Of a DNA stretch of 51,648 nucleotides, positions 33,900-35,067 are shown piece by piece (position 1 is the first letter of the stretch; each line of letters begins with the position of its first letter). The stretch spans positions 1-51,648 of the forward strand of contig JAFDXF010000032.1 of assembly GCA_018268055.1 (NCBI GenBank), read 5' to 3'. Made by a program: the position numbers and the translations under genes. The notes beneath the pieces are model-generated. The model did no database searches. It had not been told where the DNA came from and saw nothing but the letters and a program-made list of their open reading frames with translations. This stretch comes from Bacteroidota bacterium (GTDB taxonomy: Bacteria > Bacteroidota > Bacteroidia > Chitinophagales > Chitinophagaceae).

Positions 33900-34889
33900 T
33901 TACAATAATCCATTTACATTCAAGTATTCTGCTATTTGAACCGCATTCGTGGCAGCACCTTTTCTAAGGTTGTCAGAAACAATCCACATATTCAAAGTAT
34001 TGGGCTGGCTCTCATCTCTGCGTAGGCGCCCTACAAATACTTCATCTTTTTCATGTGCATCTTTTGGCATCGGATATTGTTGTGTAGAGGTATCATCTAC
34101 CACTATTACACCGCTTGCGTTTTGCAACAATGATTTTACTTCACCTAAATCAAAATCATTGGCAAACTCTACGTTCACACTTTCGCTGTGCCCGCCCATC
34201 ACCGGAATGCGTACTGTAGTTGCTGTTACTTTTATCGCATCATCTCGCATTATTTTATTCGTCTCCTTCACCATCTTCATTTCTTCTTTTGTATAGCCAT
34301 TATCCAAGAACACATCAATCTGTGGAATCACATTTAGATCGATCGGATATTTATAAGCCATCTCACCTTGCACACCATTTCGTTCGTTCATCAATTGCGT
34401 TACAGCTTTCACACCTGTTCCGGTTACGCTTTGATAAGTGCTGACTACTACTCTTTTGATGTTATACTTTTTATGCAAAGGATTCAATGCTACTACCATT
34501 TGTATCGTAGAGCAATTAGGATTGGCGATTATTTTATCTTTGGCTGTAAGCACATCAGCATTTATTTCAGGAACCACTAATGGTTTAGTTGCATCCATCC
34601 TCCATGCCGAAGAATTATCTATTACTGTTATTCCTGCTGCTGCAAATTTTGGCGCCCACTCCAACGAAGTATTGCCTCCGGCAGAAAAAAGAGCAACGGC
34701 TGGCTTGGCAGCAATAGCATCGTTCATGCTCACTACCTTATAGTTTTTCCCTTTAAACTCCACTTCCTTTCCTATGGATTTTTCAGAAGCAACGGGAATC
34801 AATTCCGTAACCGGAAAATTTCGTTCTGCCAATACTTGTAACATCTTTGTGCCTACCAACCCTGTGGCGCCTACTACTGCAACTTTCAT
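33900..34889 (-). CDS. asd: Aspartate-semialdehyde dehydrogenase
   Basis: 329 residues. The N-terminal NADP-binding motif is VVGATGLVGTKML, the catalytic Cys126 is in IIANPNCSTIQMVVAL, and the catalytic His lies in MGGHSESVNVEF. It reduces aspartyl phosphate to aspartate semialdehyde, the branch point to lysine/diaminopimelate, methionine, threonine and isoleucine. Upstream lies a full leader: consensus promoter (35037-35067), a 14-codon leader peptide (34985-35029), alternative hairpins and a terminator (34912-34939) ending 22 bases before the ATG. Transcription of asd therefore probably depends on attenuation. It is convergent with the acyl-CoA ligase gene. Confidence 0.95.
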   Translation of the reverse strand: MKVAVVGATGLVGTKMLQVLAERNFPVTELIPVASEKSIGKEVEFKGKNYKVVSMNDAIAAKPAVALFSAGGNTSLEWAPKFAAAGITVIDNSSAWRMDATKPLVVPEINADVLTAKDKIIANPNCSTIQMVVALNPLHKKYNIKRVVVSTYQSVTGTGVKAVTQLMNERNGVQGEMAYKYPIDLNVIPQIDVFLDNGYTKEEMKMVKETNKIMRDDAIKVTATTVRIPVMGGHSESVNVEFANDFDLGEVKSLLQNASGVIVVDDTSTQQYPMPKDAHEKDEVFVGRLRRDESQPNTLNMWIVSDNLRKGAATNAVQIAEYLNVNGLL

Positions 34890-34911: not shown

Positions 34912-34939
34912 AAAAAAAGCCTTCCGATTTGGAAGGCTT
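34912..34939 (-). terminator. Attenuator terminator in front of asd
   Basis: On the minus strand AAGCCTTCC-AAATC-GGAAGGCTT (9-base perfect stem) is followed by an unbroken T run (34912-34918 hold seven A on the plus strand). It lies between the asd promoter and the asd ATG, so it can stop transcription before asd. The 5' arm with one extra base (CAAGCCTTCC, 34931-34940) can instead pair with GGAAGGTTTG at 34975-34984, ten pairs with one G-U, which would prevent the terminator. Confidence 0.8.
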
Positions 34940-35017
34940 GACCATCATTTATGTTTTAAACATACATAACGCAGCAAACCTTCCTCAGAAGCGTTTCATA
35001 TTGCGTTTAGTATGTTT
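34940..35017 (-). promoter_or_regulatory. Switch region of the asd attenuator (pause and antiterminator arms)
   Basis: Three arms can be seen on the minus strand. Arm 1 (35017-35002, inside leader codons 5-10) pairs with arm 2 (34973-34958): AAACATACTAAACGCA against TGCGTTATGTATGTTT, 14 of 16 pairs. Arm A, GGAAGGTTTG (34984-34975), lies between them and duplicates the terminator 3' arm, so it can capture the terminator 5' arm. A small hairpin TATGTTT/AAACATA (34950-34964) would sit inside the antiterminator. The stop codon of the leader peptide directly abuts arm A, so a terminating ribosome would cover it. Confidence 0.6.
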
Positions 35018-35029
35018 TATTAATATCAT
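34985..35029 (-). CDS. Putative asd leader peptide, 14 codons
   Basis: ATG at 35029 to TGA at 34985, encoding MILIKHTKRNMKRF. Nine of 14 residues are aspartate-family amino acids made through or near the asd branch (three Lys, two Met, two Ile, one Thr, one Asn), though AT-rich DNA favours Lys, Ile and Asn anyway. The ATG lies 8 bases after the -7 box, so the message is nearly leaderless. Codons 5-10 form arm 1 of the switch hairpin and the stop codon touches the antiterminator arm, the arrangement needed for ribosome-sensed attenuation. No protein evidence exists. Confidence 0.5.
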   Translation of the reverse strand: MILIKHTKRNMKRF

Positions 35030-35036
35030 TGCGCAG

Positions 35037-35067
35037 CAAAAGTAATGAGTAGCAGATAAATTGCAAA
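35037..35067 (-). promoter_or_regulatory. asd: Promoter of asd and its leader
   Basis: TTTG (35064-35067), exactly 19 bases, then TACTTTTG (35037-35044) on the minus strand: a full match to the Bacteroidota consensus. Predicted start of transcription is about 35030-35033, giving a leader of roughly 140 bases before asd. Confidence 0.75.

Follow-up and report, generated by a model that had tools for sequence, protein, structure and literature searches.

Leader of asd in Chitinophagaceae: a probable ribosome-controlled transcription attenuator answering to lysine

The gene for aspartate-semialdehyde dehydrogenase (asd) in a Chitinophagaceae genome (assembly GCA_018268055.1) is preceded by a short leader holding a promoter, a small open reading frame (ORF) and several stems that compete for the same bases. 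Does this leader control asd, and if so, which signal does it read? The window, i.e., the whole stretch of DNA that was analysed, was 51,648 nucleotides long (contig JAFDXF010000032.1). Within it, the leader and its gene comprised the following parts:

35064..35067, minus strand: -33 promoter element TTTG, read from the letters (of the 125 leaders whose -7 box lies 4-10 nt ahead of the start codon, 117 had TTG at this place)
35037..35044, minus strand: -7 promoter element TACTTTTG, Bacteroidota TAnnTTTG type, read from the letters
35030..35032, minus strand: predicted RNA 5' end and 3-nt 5'UTR (GCA), from the -7 box placement at -12 to -5 given in PMC9723704
34985..35029, minus strand: leader ORF MILIKHTKRNMKRF, 14 codons, stop TGA at 34987-34985, read from the letters
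35002..35017, minus strand: arm A AAACATACTAAACGCA, inside leader codons 5-10, partner of C (pairing specific and covarying)
34975..34984, minus strand: arm B GGAAGGTTTG, antiterminator 5' arm, partner of D (B:D duplex z < -2 in 141 of 151 leaders)
34958..34973, minus strand: arm C TGCGTTATGTATGTTT, partner of A (duplex energies and covariation)
34931..34940, minus strand: arm D CAAGCCTTCC, common to the antiterminator (B:D) and the terminator (D:E) (terminator scan and duplex energies)
34917..34925, minus strand: arm E GGAAGGCTT, terminator 3' arm (terminator scan; best D:E stem of 8-16 pairs in every one of 151 leaders)
34912..34918, minus strand: terminator T run (letters and terminator scan)
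33900..34889, minus strand: asd, 329 aa, the gene under the leader (TIGR01296)

An earlier note on this DNA had described a perfect promoter, a 14-codon ORF, a 9-base terminator stem with a T run 22 bases before the asd ATG, an upstream copy of the terminator 3' arm and a third arm inside codons 5-10, and all of these were present in the window. Exactly 19 nt separated TTTG from TACTTTTG. Arm D paired with arm B at 10 of 10 positions (one G-U). Arm A paired with arm C at 14 of 16, and the leader stop TGA directly adjoined arm B, both as described. The 9-bp D:E terminator stem ended 22 nt upstream of the asd ATG (34889), and a terminator scan recovered the same hairpin. One word of that note was wrong: its title called the attenuator translational, and the arms control a transcription terminator. 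The folding energy of the window leader was -34.7 kcal/mol vs -19.7 (sd 3.3) in 200 shuffles, none of which was as low (z -4.53). The asd gene was identified by TIGR01296 (NCBIfam; 432.7 bits vs a cut-off of 324.2) and was a single copy in the source genome. It stood alone, with a divergent large ORF upstream and an ORF on the opposite strand downstream. A plain terminator of the upstream gene was ruled out, as that gene is divergent and the promoter and leader ORF are kept in relatives.

The search among relatives started from their asd loci, which gave 107 distinct upstream regions (110 loci, three duplicates removed, window locus included). Iterated nhmmer from the window leader matched 52 of these 107 regions, namely the window and 51 relatives. 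The 55 regions lacking a match included Pedobacter, Mucilaginibacter, Sphingobacterium, Flavobacterium, Hymenobacter, Dyadobacter and Spirosoma loci. One Chitinophaga (L051) and one Sediminibacterium (L064) also lacked it, as did two members of the window's genus (L027, L030); a few contigs (L062, L081) were too short to decide. In L027, a small-genome member of the window's genus, a GGCCTT hairpin and a T-rich stretch lay in the last ~45 nt before asd, which looks like a decaying leader element. Five of the relatives (L005, L007, L008, L013 and L014) had a second inverted repeat between terminator and asd start (e.g., CTTCCGCC..GGCGGAAG, then a G-rich stretch) that was absent in the window.

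A covariance model (R2) with the A:C and D:E helices was built from the 52 leaders. At E <= 0.01 a match was present in 269 of the 394 genomes from the window's family, and these spanned 83 of 101 genera; the best match was only above 1e-4 in 26 of the 269, some of which are probably plain terminators or leaders of other genes. The remaining 125 family genomes, some of them incomplete or small, had no match. Named carriers included Flavihumibacter, Limnovirga, Filimonas, Niastella, Niabella, Sediminibacterium and Parafilimonas, on which the label Chitinophagaceae-type for the family rests; Niastella yeongjuensis (L039), Niabella ginsengisoli (L040) and Limnovirga soli (L035) are cultured carriers. 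A scan of 395 genomes across the phylum gave 26 matches at E <= 0.001, and every match below 1e-7 lay within the Chitinophagaceae-type family. Six phylum-scan matches outside the family were read and proved to be four trp-type leaders, one thrA leader and one terminator. A scan of 248 genomes of the order gave 52 matches, 46 of them inside the family; the other six were each read, and asd followed none of them. Within the source genome, the next-best R2 matches (L160-L165, E 0.009-0.27) were rejected as ordinary terminators having no convincing leader ORF.

Ninety-four strong R2 matches from family genomes (E <= 1.4e-8; 24 of L121-L148, plus L150-L159 and L209-L268) were fetched blind to the gene: 89 preceded asd and five preceded dapA. 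Another 40 weaker matches were read and comprised eight asd, six dapA, 13 hisG, five trpE-like and one thrA leader, and seven without a leader. The leader set was made up of 160 sequences (149 asd, 11 dapA), i.e., 52 found via asd, the 94 fetched blind and 14 picked by gene (8 asd, 6 dapA), so that 66 of the 160 were chosen with prior knowledge of asd or dapA downstream, the search model itself being built on asd leaders. Distinct leaders numbered 151 (140 asd, 11 dapA); hisG, trpE-like, thrA and leaderless matches (26 of the 40) were excluded from these counts. A twelfth dapA leader (L281) was found outside the 160-leader set. Eight of the 11 genomes with a dapA leader also carried an asd leader (G254, G346, G109, G293, G337, G182, G104 and G116), and dapA identity was confirmed by TIGR00674 for L152. 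The source genome's own dapA (48% identical to the dapA query) had no R2 match and, by eye, no such leader.

Eleven further weak matches were also read: three hisG, one dapA (L281), one ilvD, one aminotransferase, one peroxiredoxin and four without a leader. The aminotransferase match (L278; G174:C1, 724259-724378, minus strand) had a Lys-rich leader, MTRKLHKSKKHLPNR, and a terminator; the gene behind them codes for a PLP aminotransferase whose type is unclear, and it may belong to the lysine set as a third member. The peroxiredoxin match (L276; G088:C20, 106794-106919, minus strand) combined a terminator with a leader that has four Cys codons in a row, MNNCCCCMKPYRKGNCVYI, and is possibly a cysteine-sensing attenuator. 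Similarly built His-rich leaders (HIHHHH and alike) stood before hisG in L172, L174, L178, L180, L181, L183, L184, L187, L189 and L190, and in L197-L199, L279, L280 and L282 (one hisG verified with NCBIfam, the others recognised by eye). A HisG query had no match in the source genome, a result uninformative by itself. In the first 300 nt of L206 (G000:C11), tandem copies of a ~44-nt unit (GCGGACCGGATCCCGATACGAATCGGGACGCCCTCATT...) lay beside an apparent tRNA gene.

The short ORF accompanied the leader throughout. All 151 distinct leaders had an ORF of 13-26 codons at the leader position, with an ATG start in 150. In 125 of the 151, a TAnnTT[TC]G box ended 4-10 nt upstream of the start codon, vs a chance expectation of ~0.005 per leader. 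The -7 box is placed at -12 to -5 in Flavobacterium psychrophilum (PMC9723704). Since the box ends so near the start codon, those 125 leaders are predicted to have a 5'UTR of 0-6 nt, which would make the leader ORF almost leaderless; for the window, the predicted transcription start is 35032, three bases before the leader AUG. Transcripts of this kind form a small share where figures are given: 5.5% of mRNAs are leaderless in F. psychrophilum (PMC9723704), and about 3.7% of 5'UTRs are < 10 nt in B. thetaiotaomicron (PMC7366714). The leader stop began -6 to +18 nt from the first base of arm B in 151 of 151 leaders, and therefore a terminating ribosome could cover B.

The leader ORF is under coding constraint. 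Lys codons in the leaders alternated between AAA (366) and AAG (300). In an alignment of 100 sequences (A3), the first two bases of the K8 codon were A in 98 and 91 of 100, and the third base was G in 52 and A in 44; these nucleotide columns were used in place of a codon-position table anchored on the peptide pattern, which is partly circular.

Pairing between the arms was specific. Within the 52-leader set, mean cognate energies of A:C, B:D and D:E beat each of 2000 permutations, and those of the controls A:B, C:D and B:C did not. Among the 151 leaders the cognate means were -12.16 kcal/mol for A:C (best of 2000 permutations -9.86), -16.56 for B:D (-14.68) and -18.98 for D:E (-16.36). The control C:D reached -3.22 vs a best permutation of -3.94; the control A:B, at -6.11, came near its best permutation without passing it (-6.13; permutation mean -5.68). 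Taken leader by leader, z was < -2 for A:C in 134 of 151 and for B:D in 141 of 151 (an earlier terminator-arm finder, superseded because it fused adjacent stems, gave 110 of 151 for each). The antiterminator (B:D) and the terminator (D:E) exclude each other through their common arm D, and both cognate means were better than all 2000 permutations. Where D varied, B and E often varied too, e.g., (in the order D, B, E) at position 2 (T, A and A in 115; C, G and G in 2) and position 4 (C, G and G in 144; T, A and A in 4; G, C and C in 1).

Covariation of A:C was measured on A3, which was fitted to D:E only and not to A:C. Altogether, 69 cells were altered on both sides vs 38.8 when shuffled, and the covariation score was 0.216 vs 0.160; 0 of 500 shuffles were as high for either measure. 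Sliding the helix by 1-3 columns lowered the score to 0.02-0.06, and at two columns 65-70% of cells still paired vs 76.7% in register. One of five A:C measures, the number of pairs with change on both sides, was not higher than shuffled (7 vs 7.5). The MAFFT alignment (A1) and alignments made with the model R1 mixed two registers of arm D, and B:D was assessed by per-sequence duplexes instead. As judged from these comparisons, the three helices A:C, B:D and D:E co-vary. Coincidence as the source of the stems was ruled out by the permutation and covariation tests. The alignment of relatives' asd upstream regions, which the earlier note had proposed as a check, bore it out, with three covarying helices and a kept short ORF. 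The window leader, with its promoter, ORF and competing stems, is confirmed as real and far beyond chance, because all three are kept in relatives.

A masking model was used to ask how a ribosome on the ORF would act on these stems: each leader was folded with the RNA hidden as far as 11 nt downstream of the A-site codon's first base. With the ribosome 7-17 codons before the stop, mean P(B:D) over the 151 leaders was 0.95-0.99 before E is made; with the ribosome at the stop, it was 0.12 and the terminator reached 1.00. For the window leader, a stall at Lys 5, 8 or 12 gave a P(B:D) of 1.00 and a ribosome at the stop gave 0.00; B:D was released by a stall anywhere from codon 3 to codon 12. For the full-length window RNA, P(D:E) was 0.00-0.04 under Lys 5, 8 and 12 stalls and 1.00 at the stop. 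A switch test that required P(B:D) > 0.5 at a Lys codon and < 0.2 at the stop was passed, as a calculation only, by 110 of 151 leaders at 11 nt, 92 at 8 nt and 147 at 14 nt. In this model a stall at a Lys codon freed B:D, and a ribosome at the stop hid B in those 110. Lys made up 613 of 1859 codons where a stall freed B:D vs 26 of 468 elsewhere, an enrichment that is partly nucleotide-caused, as the comparison codons overlap the G-rich arm B in long leaders.

Equilibrium folding of the full-length RNA still gave a mean terminator probability of about 0.64-0.78 under a core-codon stall. In many leaders the terminator would thus still win in the finished RNA, and B:D would have to form ahead of it (kinetic control). 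In ribosome-free leaders not yet extended to E, B:D was the favoured pairing (mean 0.72; window 0.93), so an untranslated leader would depend on refolding or timing to terminate; the order in which the stems fold must therefore count.

Together, the comparison and the folding models supported the switch logic of the earlier note, in which the position of the ribosome picks terminator or antiterminator: the stems covary, the ORF was found in 151 of 151 leaders and its stop is tied to B. The five-arm leader before asd is probably a ribosome-controlled transcription attenuator answering to lysine, and we hold this reading with good confidence. We infer the assignment to lysine and all steps involving a ribosome from sequence and its modelled folding. 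The RNA would begin some 3 nt upstream of the leader AUG, a near-leaderless start on which a ribosome would load. With ample charged tRNA-Lys, translation would proceed to the stop, where the ribosome covers B; D would then pair with E, and RNA polymerase would halt ahead of asd. Under lysine shortage, Lys codons 5, 8 and 12 would be the places of stalling, and a ribosome halted at any of them would cover A and leave B free. Free B would pair with D, the terminator would be blocked and asd would be transcribed. With no ribosome, A:C and D:E are the predicted resting fold of the finished leader, and asd would be off.

Which amino acid is read was judged from the codons kept in the ten-codon core. 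At least two Lys codons were present in the core of 151 of 151 distinct leaders. Thr was missing from 17 cores (13 asd, 4 dapA), His from 20 and both from eight, and Lys from none; leaders lacking both Thr and His included MNTIIIIKSKKMIS (asd) and MNSIKKYSSKKNISQREDA (dapA). The search did not impose Lys, because R2 also caught leaders coded for other amino acids: HIHHHH before hisG, NNWW or NTWWW before trpE-like genes, the Thr/Ile-rich MTINNTTIITIITTGKYFGGK before a fused aspartate kinase/homoserine dehydrogenase (thrA, L194) and, in another family of the order, the Ile/Val-rich MIQIIVIISIIILMNG before ilvD (L273, G967:C1). One target gene of each of these kinds was checked with NCBIfam (the trpE-like one scored below cut-off), and the others were recognised by eye. 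The source genome itself has a thrA-type gene (828-codon open frame) with nine consecutive Thr codons ~117-90 nt before its start (L283, G000:C85:138300-139600). This Thr frame has a possible GTG start (...VVCFTTTTTTTTTPQ) and a stop within a hairpin, and no clear T-run terminator was seen there. Threonine thus seems to have its own leader in these bacteria.

The earlier note had named stalling at both Lys and Thr codons, and of the two Lys is the likelier. A signal of threonine, or of the whole aspartate family (Lys, Thr, Ile and Met), acting through the same attenuator is unlikely but is the strongest of the rival readings: 134 of the 151 cores contained Thr, usually within KHTK, and the product of Asd feeds Lys, Thr, Met and Ile. 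The 17 cores devoid of Thr speak against it, as do the separately Thr-coded thrA leaders and the position of dapA, which is the first step of the lysine branch and serves that branch only. Thr and His, both also widely kept, lie within arm A, where constraints on nucleotides and on codons coincide. The likely signal of the asd and dapA leaders is therefore lysine and not threonine, because Lys is common to all of them and Thr is not, and thrA is separately Thr-coded.

Two other readings take the amino acid out of the switch. If the ORF sensed none, and translation as such (ribosome presence, or a nascent-peptide or antibiotic effect) opened the switch, the release of B:D by any stall in window codons 3-12 would be expected, and the KHTKR-KK stretch is indeed kept better than Lys alone would require. 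Yet Lys codons alternate between AAA and AAG, non-Lys residues vary, and leaders of the same build before hisG, trpE-like genes, thrA and ilvD carry codons of their own product; we consider this reading improbable. Still less probable, to the point of being nearly discounted, is a ligand-binding riboswitch or a protein-binding leader in which the ORF is incidental. Three helices are conserved, as such an element would have them, and asd is under a lysine riboswitch in some other bacteria, but arm A is part of a kept ORF that has its stop at a set place relative to arm B, and the third base of K8 varies while its first two stay A. No Rfam family, T-box included, matched the window at its gathering score, on which ground a riboswitch or T-box was ruled out; the best weak match of the leader was Phe_leader, with 31.1 of the 55 bits needed.

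The lysine attenuator thus favoured can be set beside known systems. Classical attenuators are the E. coli thr, his and trp leaders. The asd leader has the same design, i.e., an ORF rich in codons of the product, an antiterminator competing with an intrinsic terminator, and a stop next to the antiterminator arm; clustered Lys codons, an intrinsic terminator and an exclusive antiterminator were each found in it. It differs from the E. coli leaders in having Lys codons, asd and dapA as targets and a predicted start codon 0-6 nt from the RNA 5' end. Further, its arm A pairs around B with C, forming a loop that holds B, and not with B itself.

Lysine genes are a textbook case of riboswitch control, and the lysine riboswitch has no ORF and binds its ligand directly. 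As predicted for the asd leader, the riboswitch (L box, RF00168) controls lysine genes, but in other phyla. PMC1262725 assigns lysine to the L box, and histidine, threonine and phenylalanine to attenuators. RF00168 had no gathering match in the window and none in the source genome. Of 390 Bacteroidota genomes, 10 scored over its cut-off, all of them from outside the window's family, and the same search was positive in four of 14 control genomes. The asd RNA motif (RF01732) is likewise named for asd but belongs to a different lineage, Lactobacillales (Weinberg 2010); it had no gathering match in the window and was absent among the weak matches of the leader.

Closer by lineage are amino-acid-operon leaders of the same phylum. 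Bacteroid-trp (RF01692) is a leader-peptide element. It is listed in PMC2864571, and clues to leader-peptide attenuation are given for F. psychrophilum, with hisG among the conserved 5' elements, in a section of PMC9723704 that names no lysine gene. That hisG element may correspond to the hisG leaders caught here.

A literature search, made mostly without subscription journals so that an earlier prediction is possible, found no lysine leader-peptide attenuator. On balance, we favour a Chitinophagaceae-type lysine regulon (asd, dapA and perhaps the aminotransferase) run through a leader ORF at the 5' end, which would be the first lysine attenuator of its class, where other bacteria use the lysine riboswitch. 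If so, the choice of RNA sensor would be a matter of lineage and not set by the amino acid, and Bacteroidota would gain a widespread, easily testable attenuator. The near-leaderless start, if true, would mean that attenuation relies on a mode of initiation uncommon in Bacteroidota. Compared with the known attenuators, the kind of switch is old; what is new is the lysine signal assigned to it, its place before asd and dapA, the holding of B in a loop closed by A:C, and a predicted start codon almost at the RNA 5' end.
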